Shown here: piece after piece, positions 12,504 through 29,031 of the stretch
Layout of the letters: each line of letters opens with the position of its first letter
Numbering within the stretch: the stretch's first letter is position 1
From: a bacterium
GTDB lineage: Bacteria > JAJVIF01 > JAGGVT01
Direction of reading: 5' to 3'
Assembly: GCA_021157815.1 (NCBI GenBank)
Contig: JAGGVT010000168.1
Location: forward strand, 1-46,112
Length of the DNA: 46,112 nucleotides
Position numbers and translations under genes: made by a program
The notes under the pieces: generated by a model
Seen by the model: only the letters and a program-made list of their open reading frames with translations
Databases searched by the model: none
What the model was told of the DNA's origin: nothing

Positions 12504-12793
12504 CCTATTTTTTTAAATATTTTCATTCCATGCTAAACCCGCTTGAAAATATTACGATAAATTTCAAGAGATGTTTGATTGGCGTAAAAGCAGTGTCTTA
12601 ATAGGATTGAATGCTTTACAAGCTAAAAGTGATATGATAGGATTTAATATGAATGATGGAATATTTTCTACCATCAATTGATTATTTTTTGCCATATATA
12701 TTTTGCCCAAGCGGAACGCCTGAATAATACAGGCGTTACCGAGGTCGAATGAGATTTTACTCACAGGGCAATCAGAAATATCAGGAAGGAATT
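12504..12793. other. AT-rich intergenic region with one hairpin
   Basis: No gene is supported here. The only clear structure is a hairpin upstream of the histone-like gene: AACGCCTG (12715-12722), a 7-base loop and CAGGCGTT (12730-12737). It has no T-run, so it may be an operator or a leader hairpin. No convincing promoter pair was found. Confidence 0.4.
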
Positions 12794-13099
12794 ATGGTCA
12801 TCAAAAAAAAAGCAACGGCGAAAAAAACTGCGGCAAAGAAGAAACCAGCCGCAAAAAAAACTGTTGCAAAGAAAAAAACCGTAGCAAGGAAGAAAGCTGC
12901 TCCGAAGAAGAAAGTGGTTAAGAAGAAGACTACGGCAAAGAAGACAGTAGCCAAAAAGAAAGCAGCTCCAAAGAAAAAAGCCGCAGCGAAGAAGAAAGTA
13001 GTTAAGAAGAAAGCTGCACCGAAGAAAAAAACCACTGCTAAGAAAAAAGTGGTAAAGAAGAAAGCTGCTCCGAAGAAGAAAACAACAAAGAAGAAATAA
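12794..13099 (+). CDS. Lysine-rich histone H1-like basic protein
   Basis: A 101-residue protein made almost wholly of Lys, Ala, Val, Thr and Pro, with about half the residues lysine. It repeats KKAAPKKK four times between blocks such as KKKVVKKK and TTAKK. This resembles eukaryotic H1 tails and bacterial Hc2/AlgP-type tails that bind and compact DNA. There is no globular or HU domain. I chose ATG 12794 because AGGAAGGA ends 3 bases upstream; an in-frame ATG 45 bases earlier lacks such a site. Function is inferred from composition only. Confidence 0.8.
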   Translation: MVIKKKATAKKTAAKKKPAAKKTVAKKKTVARKKAAPKKKVVKKKTTAKKTVAKKKAAPKKKAAAKKKVVKKKAAPKKKTTAKKKVVKKKAAPKKKTTKKK

Positions 13100-16406: not shown

Positions 16407-16606
16407 AGGGGCGCAGCGTGGAAAATGTCTCAGAACTCCATTCCAGGCGTGTAAGTTTGTCATTCTGAGCGAAGCGAAGAATCTATATGCTATTGTGTTG
16501 ATGATTAAACCTGATGATATTTATTCCCATATCGAGAATAGATCCTTCGCTTCGCTCAGGATGACAGAAAATTCAGGTTGTGAGACTATTCCAACGTTGC
16601 GCTCCT
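16407..16606. repeat. 200-base palindromic MITE, copy 1
   Basis: The outer inverted ends are AGGGGCGCAGCGTGGAAAA and, reversed from the right, AGGAGCGCAACGTTGGAAT. Inside them lies a second inverted pair: GTCATTCTGAGCGAAGCGAA and its complement around 16545-16575. A nearly complete second copy is at 28833-29031 and cores occur at 23691-23796 and 27148-27206. It lies 15 bases after the glyA stop and could form a long hairpin in the transcript. Confidence 0.75.
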
Positions 16607-23003: not shown

Positions 23004-23498
23004 TTGGCTTTGACACTTTTAAGAGAGAGAAAAGTTATCGCGGTAATCGGTGAATCGGAAGCGTCCGATGAAACAATCAAACTCGCGCATGAGGTCGGTA
23101 CGTTGATTGCCGAGAGAGAGGGAATTCTAATATGCGGCGGATTCGGCGGTGTGATGAAAGCCGCGGCAGAGGGCGCTCAAAAAGCGGGCGGATTGACTAT
23201 TGGCGTTTTGCCGAATTACGAGAAGGATTCCGCAAACGATTTCATTGACATTGCAATCACATCAGGAATGGGCCATGCCCGTAATGTGATTATCACATCA
23301 AGCGCGGATGGTGTAATCGCGATTGGCGGAAGGTATGGCACGCTGAGCGAAATCGCCTTCGCGAGAAAACTCGGCAAGCCTGTGATGACACTGTCATCCT
23401 TTGAGATCCACAAGGACGGGAAACTCCAGGGCGATATCCTTTCCGCTGACACACCAAGGCATGCGGTGTCCAGATTGTGGAAGATTATGGAGAATTAG
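23004..23498 (+). CDS. LOG-family / TIGR00725-type nucleotide-binding protein
   Basis: A Rossmann-like SLOG protein of 164 residues. ILICGGFGGVMKAAAEGA gives the N-terminal phosphate loop, GMGHARN the conserved Arg, and GGRYGTLSEIAFA the GG.GT..E motif typical of lysine-decarboxylase-like/LOG proteins. Relatives cleave nucleotide monophosphates or bind nucleotide signals; the exact reaction is unknown. The start is TTG at 23004, with AAAGGA 7 bases upstream. The stop TAG overlaps the first unit of an 8-base repeat array. Confidence 0.85.
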   Translation: MALTLLRERKVIAVIGESEASDETIKLAHEVGTLIAEREGILICGGFGGVMKAAAEGAQKAGGLTIGVLPNYEKDSANDFIDIAITSGMGHARNVIITSSADGVIAIGGRYGTLSEIAFARKLGKPVMTLSSFEIHKDGKLQGDILSADTPRHAVSRLWKIMEN

Positions 23499-23641
23499 TT
23501 AGTAGGTTAGTAAGTTAGTAAGTTAGTAAGTTAGCAGGTTAGCAGGTTAGTAAGTTAGCAAGTTAGCAGGTTAGTAGGTTAGCAGGTTAGTAAGTTAGCA
23601 GGTTAGCAGGTTGGCAGGTTGGCAGGTTGGCAAGTTGATAG
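23498..23641 (+). repeat. Tandem array 1 of an 8-base unit (18 copies)
   Basis: Eighteen uninterrupted 8-base units follow the pattern GTTAGYAR (GTTAGTAA, GTTAGCAG, GTTAGTAG, GTTAGCAA, then GTTGGCAG variants). The period is exact throughout. The first G is the last base of the preceding gene's stop codon. The array decays into GT-rich sequence by about 23655. Two similar arrays follow the next two genes. Confidence 0.95.
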
Positions 23642-23690
23642 GAGTGGTAGGTTGGTGTCTCTGAGGTTATGTCATAATCTGCAATTTTTT

Positions 23691-23861
23691 TCATTCTGAG
23701 CGAAGCGAAAAATCTATTCTCGATAATGTGTATTTTACTCATCAGACGTAATCATTAACACTGAAGCAAATAGATTCTTCGCTTCGATCAGAATGGAAAT
23801 TCTACTTAAAATAACACCATGCTTCAACGTGGTGCGTCCTAAAAAAAACAAAGCATGGTGT
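23691..23861. repeat. Core of the 200-base MITE plus a small hairpin
   Basis: TCATTCTGAGCGAAGCGAAA (from 23691) and its inverse around 23776-23796 form the inner palindrome of the MITE family; the outer ends are absent. It is followed by ACACCATGCTT (23814-23824) and AAGCATGGTGT (23851-23861), a hairpin sharing its core with the one at 4263-4302. The 387-base gap between the LOG and YfhO-like genes is thus all repeats. Confidence 0.7.
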
Positions 23862-23885
23862 GTTTGAAAAACCAAAATAAAATAA

Positions 23886-26306
23886 ATGTCATCGCATCCA
23901 CGGCATAAATTCTTTTTAAAATGGCTTCTGGTAATTCCGTTCTTTCTGTTTTTCCAGATAACATTGGGACGCGCGGTTTTCAGCGGCATTGATATTCTCA
24001 AGCAGCATATCCCGATGAAATATTTCAACGCCGTTTCCTTCAAGGCGGGACATTTCCCGCTTTGGAATCCCCTGGTATTCCAGGGATATCCGCATTTCGC
24101 CGAGGGGCAGTCAGGTCCGCTTTATATCGGGAATCTGCTGATGTATATCGAGTCAATCGACAGATTTATCAGCGCGTACAGCATGACAGTCATCCTTCAT
24201 TTTGTCCTTGGCGGATTGCTTTGCTACATCTTTTTCCGTAGGAAAAACCTGAGTCCGCTCGCGTCGTTTTTTGCGAGTATCAGCATTACCTACAGCCCGT
24301 TTATAATCATTCACGCGTCGGCGCCATCGCTTCATCAGGTCGCGATTTATTTCCCCCTGATGCTTCTTCTCTATGACGCTGCCATGAAACGCCCGTTGAT
24401 AAACACTATTCTGGGTGGGCTTTTATGCGGGATGCTTCTTCTAATCGGGCATGTCCAAATGGTAGTTTACGCTTTAATCGCTTTGTTCATCTACGCGGTT
24501 TTCATAGGCATACTGGACTTTGAACGGAATGAAATCGCTGGCAGGATTAAAAGAAGCATAGGATTTTTTATCGGGCTTGTTATCTTCGGCGCGGGACTTG
24601 CCGCGATTCAACTTCTACCAACGATGGAACTAAGCGCGCTGACTGTTCGAGGTGTCGGCTCAATTCCGTCGAGTTTTTATGAAGAGGGGACATGGTTCAC
24701 ACTTCCGAGGCTGGCATCGATTTTCGTCTGCCCCGCGCTGGATAACACATCCAACCTGCGGGATTACGGAACATCGATTATCTACTTCGGAGTCCTGCCG
24801 GTTTTACTTTTCCTCATTTGCTGGCGCGATGAAAACTTCAAGCGTAAATCATTGCCGTGGCTGTTTTGCTTTGGAATCCTTTTTCTCCTCTCAATGGGGC
24901 TGAACAATCCGGTTAATTACCTGCTGATAAAAATCCCGCCGTTCAATCTTTTCAGGTACATCGGACGATATGCGTACTTTGCCGGATTTTTCCTCGCTTT
25001 CCCGCTTGCCCTGTCAATCGATGTCGCAATCGGGCATGGTCAGGAACTAATCAAAGAGGGCGGGTTTTTCAAAAACGTCTGGCGCGAGTGCGTGATTTTA
25101 TTCGCGCTGATTATCATAATGCTTCTCTTTTCAAGCCCCGGGAAATTCCTGCTTCTTGGGCTGGTTCACTTTGCGGTTACATTCGTTATCGCAATCAGCC
25201 TGATTGCGCTTGCAATGCGCCGCAGGAGCAGGGAGATAATTAAAATCGCTGTGTTTGCGCATATTCTGATGTTCCTTGCCATGAGCTTTTGCGCATCTAA
25301 TCTTACACAGATCTATAAGGAAAAGCAGGATGAATCGCTTTCGGTGTATCGTGAAATAGCGCATCACAAGTACAGTAACAAAGCGACATATATCGCGTCC
25401 GACAGGATGTTCATCTCCGCTGCTGATATTGACAACTATCTTCTGACGCCGCAGGATAAAATTACGTTTGACGCATCCGGTTCGGCAGGACTGTATAAAT
25501 GGGGCGTTCCGAATGTGAACGGCTATACCCCATTGAAACTTTTCAGGCGGGAAATGCTGAATAATTACATCGTTAAAACATTCACAAATCCGCCTGAAGC
25601 AATTGATTTGCCGTTTATGGAGTATTTGCTCTACGATATTCTCGGAATCAATTTCCTGATAATATCCGGAAAAGAATGGCGATTTTCAAAATACCAGGTT
25701 GCAATTGGCCCTTTGAAACAGGGTTTCGATGATGATACCTATCTGTACATCGCGCGCAGTGAGCATCCGGGATTCTATCTGCGGGAGAATGATTCAAAGG
25801 GAATTTTCGATCTGAAGGATACAAACAATCCGGTTGATTTCTATCTCGCTTTGTATAATCAGGAGAGGAATGCGATTGGGTTAACATCAGAGCAGCGATG
25901 GGAATATCGACATCTCGCACTGTTGGAAACAGGCGATGGCGCATATAAATCCTCAATGCACCGCAGCATGAAACCTGCGTTTCCTGAATATGAAATCCAC
26001 TGGGACGGTTTGATTGAACGTTTCACAATCAGCGATCCGCTTGACGCTTACGATGGCCTTCTCATTCACGAAAGCGTTTATCCCGGCTGGGAGGCTTATG
26101 TGAACGGGAATCCGGTTGAAATTCAAACAGGCGATGGTCTGTTTAAGTTCATCGAACTTGGAAAAGGGAAAAATTATGAAATCGAAATGCGATATTTCCC
26201 TCAGAGTTTCAAAAATGGCGTCTATATCTCTCTAATCACACTAGGCTTGTGGATTCTGGTTTTCATCCCCGTATTGCTGAACTACAGGCGAAGAGAAGCA
26301 AGTTAG
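23886..26306 (+). CDS. YfhO-like multi-pass membrane protein
   Basis: An integral membrane protein of 806 residues with about a dozen helices and a C-terminal extracytoplasmic beta domain. FPLWNPLVFQGYPHFAEGQS near residue 57 matches the first-loop signature of the YfhO family. The C-terminal YPGWEAYVNGNPVEIQTGDG, then YEIEMRYFPQSFKNG and a last helix, is also typical. YfhO proteins have a GT-C glycosyltransferase-like fold and are linked to teichoic acid or polysaccharide glycosylation; the substrate here is unknown. No Shine-Dalgarno is seen. The last codon (AGT) and stop (TAG) come from the repeat array that follows. Confidence 0.85.
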   Translation: MSSHPRHKFFLKWLLVIPFFLFFQITLGRAVFSGIDILKQHIPMKYFNAVSFKAGHFPLWNPLVFQGYPHFAEGQSGPLYIGNLLMYIESIDRFISAYSMTVILHFVLGGLLCYIFFRRKNLSPLASFFASISITYSPFIIIHASAPSLHQVAIYFPLMLLLYDAAMKRPLINTILGGLLCGMLLLIGHVQMVVYALIALFIYAVFIGILDFERNEIAGRIKRSIGFFIGLVIFGAGLAAIQLLPTMELSALTVRGVGSIPSSFYEEGTWFTLPRLASIFVCPALDNTSNLRDYGTSIIYFGVLPVLLFLICWRDENFKRKSLPWLFCFGILFLLSMGLNNPVNYLLIKIPPFNLFRYIGRYAYFAGFFLAFPLALSIDVAIGHGQELIKEGGFFKNVWRECVILFALIIIMLLFSSPGKFLLLGLVHFAVTFVIAISLIALAMRRRSREIIKIAVFAHILMFLAMSFCASNLTQIYKEKQDESLSVYREIAHHKYSNKATYIASDRMFISAADIDNYLLTPQDKITFDASGSAGLYKWGVPNVNGYTPLKLFRREMLNNYIVKTFTNPPEAIDLPFMEYLLYDILGINFLIISGKEWRFSKYQVAIGPLKQGFDDDTYLYIARSEHPGFYLRENDSKGIFDLKDTNNPVDFYLALYNQERNAIGLTSEQRWEYRHLALLETGDGAYKSSMHRSMKPAFPEYEIHWDGLIERFTISDPLDAYDGLLIHESVYPGWEAYVNGNPVEIQTGDGLFKFIELGKGKNYEIEMRYFPQSFKNGVYISLITLGLWILVFIPVLLNYRRREAS

Positions 26307-26405
26307 TAAGTTAGTAAGTTAGTAAGTTAGTAAGTTAGCAGGTTAGCAGGTTAGTAAGTTAGCAGGTTAGTAAGTTAGCAGGTTAGCAGGTTAGTAAGTT
26401 AGCAA
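26302..26405 (+). repeat. Tandem array 2 of the 8-base unit (13 copies)
   Basis: Thirteen uninterrupted units, mainly GTTAGTAA and GTTAGCAG. It begins inside the final serine codon of the YfhO-like gene and provides its stop. Its unit order resembles that of array 1: four or so GTTAGTAA-type units, two GTTAGCAG, then alternation. This suggests a shared origin. Confidence 0.95.
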
Positions 26406-26464
26406 GTTGTTGTGCAGTTTACGGATAACAGGTCAAAATGCTTGAAGACTAATTAAAGTGACGG

Positions 26465-26502
26465 CTGCGTCTCGCAGACAGTATTGAAAGCGTCCCGCTT
26501 TC
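26465..26502. other. Two short hairpins between array 2 and the PNPOx-like gene
   Basis: CTGCG-TCT-CGCAG (26465-26477) and GAAAGCG-TCC-CGCTTTC (26486-26502) are compact inverted repeats with 3-base loops. No T-run follows. The rest of 26406-26601 shows nothing recognisable. Confidence 0.4.
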
Positions 26503-26601
26503 CCCGATAGTAAATTAAACAATCCCAAACCATTTCACTTTTACATCTTCAGTGTTAATATTCTCCATCCATGAGAAAAGCAAATCACCGGGAGATGATT
26601 T

Positions 26602-27018
26602 ATGGATAAAAGCGAACTTCTTGGCATAGTAAAAACTGAATTGGAGGATGTGGATATATTTGCGCTCATGACACTCGAATCGGGATATCCTGTCGCGCGG
26701 CCGATGAGCGGATTGATTTTCCATGATGACAAGACGATTCTACTGTCAACATCCCGCAGCAGCCGTAAGTTTCAACAGATTGCTAAACAACCCATCGCGA
26801 CACTGTTTATACATGAGGGGGAGCGTTATTTGAACATACGCGGGAAGCCATCGCTGGAGAACGATCCCGAACTGAAGGATAAATACTGGTCTGACAAGTG
26901 GACTGAGTATTACCCCGATGGCAAAAAGAGCGATGACTATGTGTTTTTCCGCCTGGATATCGAGCACATATCATTTAAGGATTTCTCGAAGAACATCGAT
27001 GTGGAAATGAGTTGGTAG
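26602..27018 (+). CDS. Pyridoxamine 5'-phosphate oxidase-like (split-barrel flavin-binding) protein
   Basis: A 138-residue split beta-barrel protein of the general stress protein 26 / PNPOx-like group. Visible features are FALMTLESGYPVARPMSGLI, LLSTSRSSRKFQQIAKQPIA, the RYLNIRGK strand and WTEYYPDGKKSDDYVFFRLD. Such proteins bind FMN or F420 and reduce or sense small molecules; true vitamin B6 synthesis is unlikely because the PdxH C-terminal motif is absent. GGAG lies 7 bases before the ATG. The last codons (AGT TGG) and the stop are formed by array 3. Confidence 0.85.
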   Translation: MDKSELLGIVKTELEDVDIFALMTLESGYPVARPMSGLIFHDDKTILLSTSRSSRKFQQIAKQPIATLFIHEGERYLNIRGKPSLENDPELKDKYWSDKWTEYYPDGKKSDDYVFFRLDIEHISFKDFSKNIDVEMSW

Positions 27019-27130
27019 GTTGGGAAGTTAGTAAGTTAGCAGGTTAATAAGTTAGTAAGTTAGCAGGTTAGTAAGTTAGCAAGTTAGCAGGTTAGCAAGT
27101 TAGCAGGTTAATAAGTTAGTAAGTTAGCAG
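27011..27130 (+). repeat. Tandem array 3 of the 8-base unit (15 copies)
   Basis: Fifteen uninterrupted units: GTTGGTAG, GTTGGGAA, then GTTAGTAA, GTTAGCAG, GTTAATAA and GTTAGCAA. The array starts inside the penultimate codon of the PNPOx-like gene, so part of the serine codon, the tryptophan codon and the TAG stop are repeat-derived. GTTAATAA occurs twice here and not in the other arrays. Confidence 0.95.
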
Positions 27131-27147
27131 GTTGGACTGAACCGAAT

Positions 27148-27206
27148 TTCTGTCATCCTGAGCGAAGCGAAGGATCTATTCTCGACAGTATGGATTAATT
27201 TCATCA
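27148..27206. repeat. Half copy of the 200-base MITE core
   Basis: TTTCTGTCATCCTGAGCGAA and the following bases match the inverse of the right half of the copy at 28833-29031, including the ATTCTCGACAGTATGGATT region. The other half is missing. Confidence 0.65.
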
Positions 27207-27213
27207 GAATTAC

Positions 27214-27352
27214 CCCGGCAAAGGGATGCCGGGTTACACGGAGATGATTTTACGCTTTCCCCGGCAAAGGGATGCCGGGTTACATAGAGATAAACCTGGC
27301 GAAGGAATTACATGGAAATAACCCCGGTGAAGGGACACCGGGTTGCATGGAG
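27214..27352 (+). repeat. Repeated hairpin plus Shine-Dalgarno units before pepD
   Basis: Three hairpins with a shared AAGGGA-type loop occur at 27214-27233, 27260-27279 and 27323-27342. A degenerate copy without its right arm starts near 27295. Each hairpin is followed by TTACA/TTGCA and a GGAGATGA-like tail. The arms are CCCGGCA/TGCCGGG in the first two and CCCGGTG/CACCGGG in the last: two pairs changed and pairing was kept. The GGAG after the last hairpin (27349-27352) is the ribosome binding site of pepD. Confidence 0.75.
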
Positions 27353-27358
27353 ATGAAC

Positions 27359-28834: not shown

Positions 28835-29031
28835 GGGCGCTGTTTGGAAAGTGTCTCAGGACTCCTGATGAGCGAAAAAATTTGTCATTCTGAGCGCAGC
28901 GAAGAATCTATAAGTTGCGGTGTTGATGATTAAACCAAGTGAAATTAATCCACACTATCGATAATAGATCCTTCGCTTCGCTCAGGATGACAGAAAATGC
29001 AGGTTCTAAGACAGTTCCCTTGCTGCGACCT
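28833..29031. repeat. 200-base palindromic MITE, copy 2
   Basis: The outer end AGGGGCGCTGTTTGGAAA begins inside the pepD stop codon, and its inverse ends at 29031. The inner arms carry GTCATTCTGAGCGCAGCGAA and CTTCGCTTCGCTCAGGATGA. It is similar over its whole length to 16407-16606, and both copies sit directly after a plus-strand gene. Confidence 0.75.

Follow-up and report, generated by a model that had tools for sequence, protein, structure and literature searches.

The window, a 46,112-nucleotide stretch of bacterial DNA, contains three consecutive genes on the forward strand, each of which runs directly into a tandem array of one 8-bp unit (Table 1). A first-pass annotation had placed these arrays correctly and counted their units correctly, and the period is strictly 8 bp with no indels, both on inspection of the sequence and in TRF (spans 23498-23636, 26300-26408 and 27010-27133; 0% indels). 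The commonest units in the window are GTTAGCAG and GTTAGTAA, and GTTAGTAG and GTTAGCAA are also present. The description of every unit as GTTAGYAR holds for array 2 and needs amendment for the other two. Array 1 comprises 14 such units and then closes with three GTTGGCAR units (GTTGGCAG twice, followed by GTTGGCAA) and one GTTGATAG, and array 3 opens with GTTGGTAG and GTTGGGAA before continuing as GTTAGYAR, including two GTTAATAA.

All three arrays overlap the TAG with which the preceding gene ends, and thus they start on the stop codon and do not merely lie behind the genes. The G of the gene 1 stop (23496-23498) is the first base of the opening unit of array 1; the gene 2 stop (26304-26306) is the TAG of the opening GTTAG unit of array 2; and the gene 3 stop (27016-27018) falls within the opening unit of array 3, GTTGGTAG. 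Pfam domains extend close to the C-termini of the SLOG and PNPOx-like proteins. At another array the upstream protein is PurH, which ends in RHFRH, a sequence that we take from general knowledge of the PurH family to be the native C-terminus. The upstream proteins therefore look complete and the arrays appear to sit behind native gene ends. The native-looking C-termini, together with the fixed phase of the overlapping stop relative to the array, led us to reject the idea that the arrays truncate genes.

Table 1. Genes, octamer arrays and neighbouring repeats in the window.
Feature	Position	Strand	Description
Gene 1	23004..23498	+	SLOG cluster 4 family (PF18306), 164 aa
Array 1	23498..23641	+	18 units x 8 bp
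MITE-like palindromic element	23683..23799		arms 23688-23718 / 23769-23799, TCATTCTGAGCGAAGCGAA.AATCT; 3' of array 1
Gene 2	23886..26306	+	YfhO-type membrane protein (PF09586), 806 aa
Array 2	26302..26405	+	13 units, GTTAGYAR throughout
Gene 3	26602..27018	+	pyridoxamine 5'-phosphate oxidase-like (PNPOx-like; PF01243), 138 aa
Array 3	27011..27130	+	15 units
Second TCATYCTGAGCGAAGCGAAGGATCT-element copy	27145..27208	+	one arm; directly behind array 3
REP-like hairpins	27210..27354		three, CCCGG-N-CCGGG

Several other repeats share this neighbourhood. The MITE-like element, with arms TCATTCTGAGCGAAGCGAAGAATCT, is found in the window at 16465-16559, 23683-23799, 27145-27208 and 28881-29005, and in many copies its arms have a start-to-start spacing of 76 bp. 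It forms a family separate from the octamers; its arms match 82 times (43 + 39) in the source genome, and a search of seven other genomes gave no match. REP-like hairpins of the form CCCGG-N8..11-CCGGG number about 311 per genome and are roughly five-fold denser in array-bearing intergenic regions. A third dispersed element, some 200-270 bp long with ends AGAGGGTTTAAGAG...CTCTTAAACCCTCT (L158, about 190-470; L031, 7482-7711), has dozens of copies in the source genome at 80-98% identity, several of which adjoin octamer arrays. An Rfam scan of the window returned tRNAs only. The window also contains, at 12749-13099 on the forward strand, a 116-aa small ORF made up mostly of Lys/Ala-rich repeats (AAKKKAAPKKK) that is histone-H1-like.

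Genome-wide distribution and placement of the arrays

The source genome (G000) is a 3.2-Mb draft in 221 contigs. A three-unit pattern finds 1,583 matches in it (714 + 869) and the reversed control pattern finds 0, so the window arrays are not a product of chance. The further copies by which the first-pass annotation proposed to judge these arrays are thus abundant, and what it called unusual for intergenic DNA is a genome-wide family located at gene ends. We surveyed the arrays in 100 stretches plus the window, which together make up 1.22 Mb or 38% of the genome and were picked non-randomly, by contig number, with mechanical ORFs serving as gene calls. This portion holds 57 arrays, with a median length of 13 units and a range of 3-40, from which we extrapolate a total of about 150 octamer arrays in the genome. 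Three genomes of the same class have no arrays, even when 3 mismatches are allowed, and the family must accordingly have been gained recently in this lineage or lost elsewhere.

The arrays are positioned at the 3' end of a transcription unit, be it a stop codon, a terminator or a tRNA end, with the G-rich strand coding and the 5' end of the array against the gene. Between co-directional genes, 23 arrays are in the sense orientation and 1 is antisense (two-sided sign test, 3e-6). The earlier claim that the G-rich strand is always the coding strand is correct for the window arrays and is supported at gene ends by this ratio; genome-wide, "always" is too strong, since 13/57 arrays (~20%) lie behind a gene on the opposite strand. 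Thirty-three arrays are the first to follow a gene on the same strand. Of these, 29 overlap the stop codon or begin at most 13 bp beyond it, compared with the 5.3 predicted from uniform intergenic placement and a maximum of 15 in 200,000 simulations. Three of the remaining four are found behind an intrinsic terminator (L107, L120 and L185; the background terminator rate is 46/370), and the other is behind a tRNA, beginning 22 bp past the tRNA-Phe gene (L177). Irrespective of the strand of the neighbour, the gap on the 5' side of the array is smaller than that on the 3' side in 39 of 44 cases (p = 7e-8).

The junction between gene and array has a preferred register. When the stop codon falls inside the array, it coincides with the TAG of the opening GTTAG in 9 of the 13 overlapping cases, a preference that hints at a rule of joining more than at tolerance alone, and the base before TAG is T at 16/21 array-bearing TAG ends versus 60/220 other TAG ends. 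Stop-adjacent arrays are present at 29 of 830 gene ends. Adjacent intergenic regions both carry arrays in 10 pairs versus 2.4 expected, a clustering that may reflect local spreading of the arrays. Arrays often face one another across a single intergenic region, and each gene of the convergent pair at L201 has its own array.

The orientation of the arrays shows no association with GC skew, on which ground we rejected a replication-strand origin. No shared function was seen among the array-bearing genes that we read, and the small unannotated ORFs that we sought ahead of arrays away from stop codons were mostly absent, so that overlooked ORFs do not account for most of the 13 arrays behind an opposite-strand gene. 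At array-free stops we found 3 exact units in 801 ends, and loose matches were at the level of shuffles; growth of the arrays from chance seeds already in place at stop codons is therefore not in evidence in G000.

Unit order and changes in array length

The first-pass annotation had seen a similar order of unit variants in the three arrays and had taken it to indicate copying between sites. This interpretation fails against both of its controls, and we do not retain it: 41 array pairs have a six-unit word in common, versus 40 when the order is reversed, and Markov simulation gives 45 +/- 12. Nor do neighbouring arrays show any extra likeness in unit make-up relative to distant ones (P = 0.33). 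Units inside the arrays recur with a period of 16 bp, or two units (lag 2, z = +4.7; lag 1, z = -6.1), which points to local duplication or slippage.

A second assembly of the species allowed individual arrays to be compared directly. The IMG/VR contig L031 is 99-100% identical to contig C167 of G000, and its arrays occupy the same sites. On the basis of mismatches in the two flanks (29 per 5,301 bases and 4 per 5,155 bases) we treat the two as different strains, whose samples of origin may be the same. One site has 5 units in L031 and 10 in G000; at a second, the L031 array is clearly shorter and the G000 copy contains a duplicated multi-unit block; and three further arrays are identical. In other words, arrays gain or lose whole units in place once they are present, and the variation in unit number that the first-pass annotation had envisaged does occur. 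The octamer arrays are also fast length markers of strains, and they break assemblies of such genomes.

A comparable site exists in Pseudoalteromonas (the cultivable P. shioyasakiensis group), where the unit is GTTAGCAA. At one orthologous position four species have 7, 11, 11 and 21 units and three others have none, and homology between species with and without the array breaks off at the stop codon. The region comprises either an array with a short tail or a longer array-free segment (L248-L250 compared with L054, L075, L246 and L247). The array-free state begins with GTTAACGAGTAATG, which resembles two decayed units.

Origin and possible role of the arrays

With moderate confidence, we propose that the arrays are a lineage-specific satellite-like repeat, recently expanded and unstable in length, nucleating at the 3' boundary of a transcription unit and growing away from the gene. 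Most probably they are filler DNA that spreads fast; they are not a proven control element, and no observation requires that they have a function for the host. An array would nucleate at the last constrained base of the gene and would extend away from it through slippage during replication and through unequal recombination, frequently by two units (16 bp) at a time. It may be tolerated at that position because the downstream DNA is unconstrained up to the next promoter, and also because every reading frame of the array contains stop codons. The fixed orientation could arise from the polarity of transcription, for example through the displaced G-rich non-template strand; we ascribe it to transcription since the orientation goes with the gene and we saw no signal of the replication strand. 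This proposal has difficulties. Neutral filler alone does not account for the orientation, and the stop adjacency, the sense orientation and the separate arrays of the two L201 genes fit a selected 3'-UTR element equally well. The lack of partial seeds at array-free stops, the preferred register of the stop TAG in the first unit and the 13/57 arrays behind opposite-strand genes also count against it.

We considered how such a 3'-UTR element might work. Transcribed as the beginning of the 3' UTR, the array would fold into a long G.U-rich hairpin that protects the mRNA 3' end or binds an RNA-binding protein, an arrangement that would explain why arrays begin at the stop codon in the sense orientation. 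GUURGY is self-complementary if wobble pairs are allowed, and from the sequence the variable positions R4 and Y6 would preserve wobble pairing. The sense RNA of array 1 has a predicted folding energy of -34.4 kcal/mol versus -18.7 for dinucleotide shuffles (z = -7.2), the antisense RNA of array 2 is nearly unfolded (-3.6 kcal/mol), and in 56/57 arrays the sense strand gives the better fold of the two. However, when the letters of the unit are permuted, 14-38% of the resulting octamers fold equally well. The folding is therefore not exceptional and provides no evidence of selection, and the asymmetry between strands follows from G/U composition and repetition. A 3'-UTR element is further disfavoured by the small share of gene ends with a stop-adjacent array and the absence of arrays from the same-class genomes, by the three arrays that lie beyond an intrinsic terminator and thus outside the expected transcript, and by the lack of a common function among the genes read. 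We regard it as unlikely. A quite different possibility, to which we assign a low probability, is that a reverse transcriptase, repair polymerase or integrase-like activity places ready-made arrays at transcript 3' ends in the sense orientation. All 33 first arrays behind a same-strand gene sit at a plausible RNA 3' end, and the missing seeds, the phase lock and TTAG enrichment at the junction, and the clustering in neighbouring intergenic regions would all fit such an activity; against it, neither conserved outer ends nor target duplications were seen, and unit order is not common between arrays. To our knowledge this kind of addition has no precedent. Its more specific form, an RNA-linked appending of GTTAGYAR to mRNA and tRNA ends by reverse transcription or repair, fixed in the chromosome in sense, strikes us as highly improbable; if true, it would be a bacterial counterpart, at gene ends, of telomere-like repeat addition.

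A further possibility is that the arrays are putative binding sites for a chromosome-organising or regulatory DNA-binding protein, with G-rich octamers spaced 0.75 turns apart; their dispersal between genes, conserved unit and constant period would fit this. We think this very unlikely, given that array length ranges from 3 to 40 units and differs between strains, that strict sense orientation and stop adjacency are unexpected for a site recognised at the level of duplex DNA, and that no replication-strand bias was seen. The fragmented state of the draft, in which 7 of the 57 arrays are at contig ends, raises the question of an assembly or binning artefact, the outcome that the first-pass annotation had attached to a lack of further copies together with loss of the arrays from raw reads. 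The IMG/VR contig of the same species has the same arrays at the same sites, arrays of this kind also occupy an orthologous site in isolate genomes of Pseudoalteromonas, and an artefact would have no reason to line up with stop codons and gene strand; it is barely conceivable as an explanation. For arrays of this kind, the question that G000 makes testable is whether the polarity comes from transcription-linked mutation or is maintained by selection on mRNA 3' ends.

Comparison with known repeat systems

As variable-length direct tandem repeats, the arrays differ from REP and MITE elements, which have inverted-repeat ends or a palindrome and defined ends. The unit has no T-tract, unlike an intrinsic terminator with its G+C-rich hairpin and T-tract, and head-to-tail 8-bp units without spacers are not the longer repeats and unique spacers of a CRISPR locus. 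They are many arrays of one short unit dispersed through intergenic DNA, like the GGGAATC and TAACTGA heptamers considered below. They also resemble the cyanobacterial STRR heptamers and long prokaryotic SSRs, which are lineage-specific intergenic tandem repeats with 5-11 bp units (reviewed in PMC4679880 and PMC4692102).

Octamers with the GTTRGYAR consensus occur in named matches from Bacteroidetes MAGs, Pseudoalteromonas, Moorena, Chloroflexi and Gemmatimonadota, with at most 102 matches per genome among those counted versus 1,583 in G000. In a broad sample, the true pattern was found in 1/384 genomes outside G000, with few arrays, and the reversed control in 4/385; because the control is as frequent outside G000, homology across phyla is not supported. 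The GTTRGTAR arrays of Bacteroidales AS08 have the same period and consensus and a similar placement (14:1 sense, 9/20 no more than 20 bp from a stop), and the placement rule recurs in Moorena (7:0 sense). The arrays of the LacPavin Bacteroidetes and of Chloroflexi (GTTGGTAG) share the period of 8 and the consensus but lack the placement rule. The Pseudoalteromonas arrays likewise have the same period and consensus, and in all these genomes the unit flavours differ from those of G000. The complete genome G347 (L280-L299) has about 14 dispersed short (AATGGTTG)n arrays, mostly intergenic and 20-230 bp from stop codons, and thus represents an octamer family without stop anchoring.

Two heptamer systems are closest in behaviour, and the G000 arrays share with them a non-random placement and polarity relative to genes and a change in length by whole units between strains or species. 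The TAACTGA direct repeats of Beggiatoaceae, Cyanobacteria and Bacteroidetes form about 170 dispersed intergenic sets, are patchy across phyla, and show whole-unit indels between strains and a consistent orientation to genes (MacGregor 2015, PMC4679880). They differ from the present arrays in being heptamers in two to six copies and in lying just upstream of Maribeggiatoa start codons, whereas the G000 arrays lie downstream of stops. The nearest known case is that of the GGGAATC heptamers of Xanthomonas and Nostoc/Anabaena, whose arrays number about 185 per genome, dispersed in intergenic DNA (Rehm et al. 2015, PMC4692102). The 5' end of their G-rich strand is nearer the neighbouring ORF, sense arrays lie no more than 50 bp from the stop codon or overlap it, facing pairs occur, length differs between species, and neither a replication-strand preference nor a common gene function was found (PMC4692102). 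Polarity, stop-codon proximity and convergent or facing pairs are therefore common to both families.

Short tandem arrays placed by gene polarity thus exist in several unrelated bacteria, and G000 is the sharpest case among the sources that we found. In the literature on the literal repeat and on octamer arrays, we found no description of stop-codon-anchored, sense-strand octamers. GGGAATC arrays most often have 4 units, and between co-directional genes they are 30% sense and 35% antisense (PMC4692102), in contrast to a median of 13 units and a 23:1 sense ratio in G000. The GGG runs of that heptamer are capable of forming a G-quadruplex, for which four GGG runs are needed in successive units; GTTRGYAR contains no GGG and has at most GG at the unit joints. 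What is new relative to GGGAATC-type arrays is therefore the octameric unit, the longer arrays, the lack of a quadruplex motif and a much stronger sense bias.
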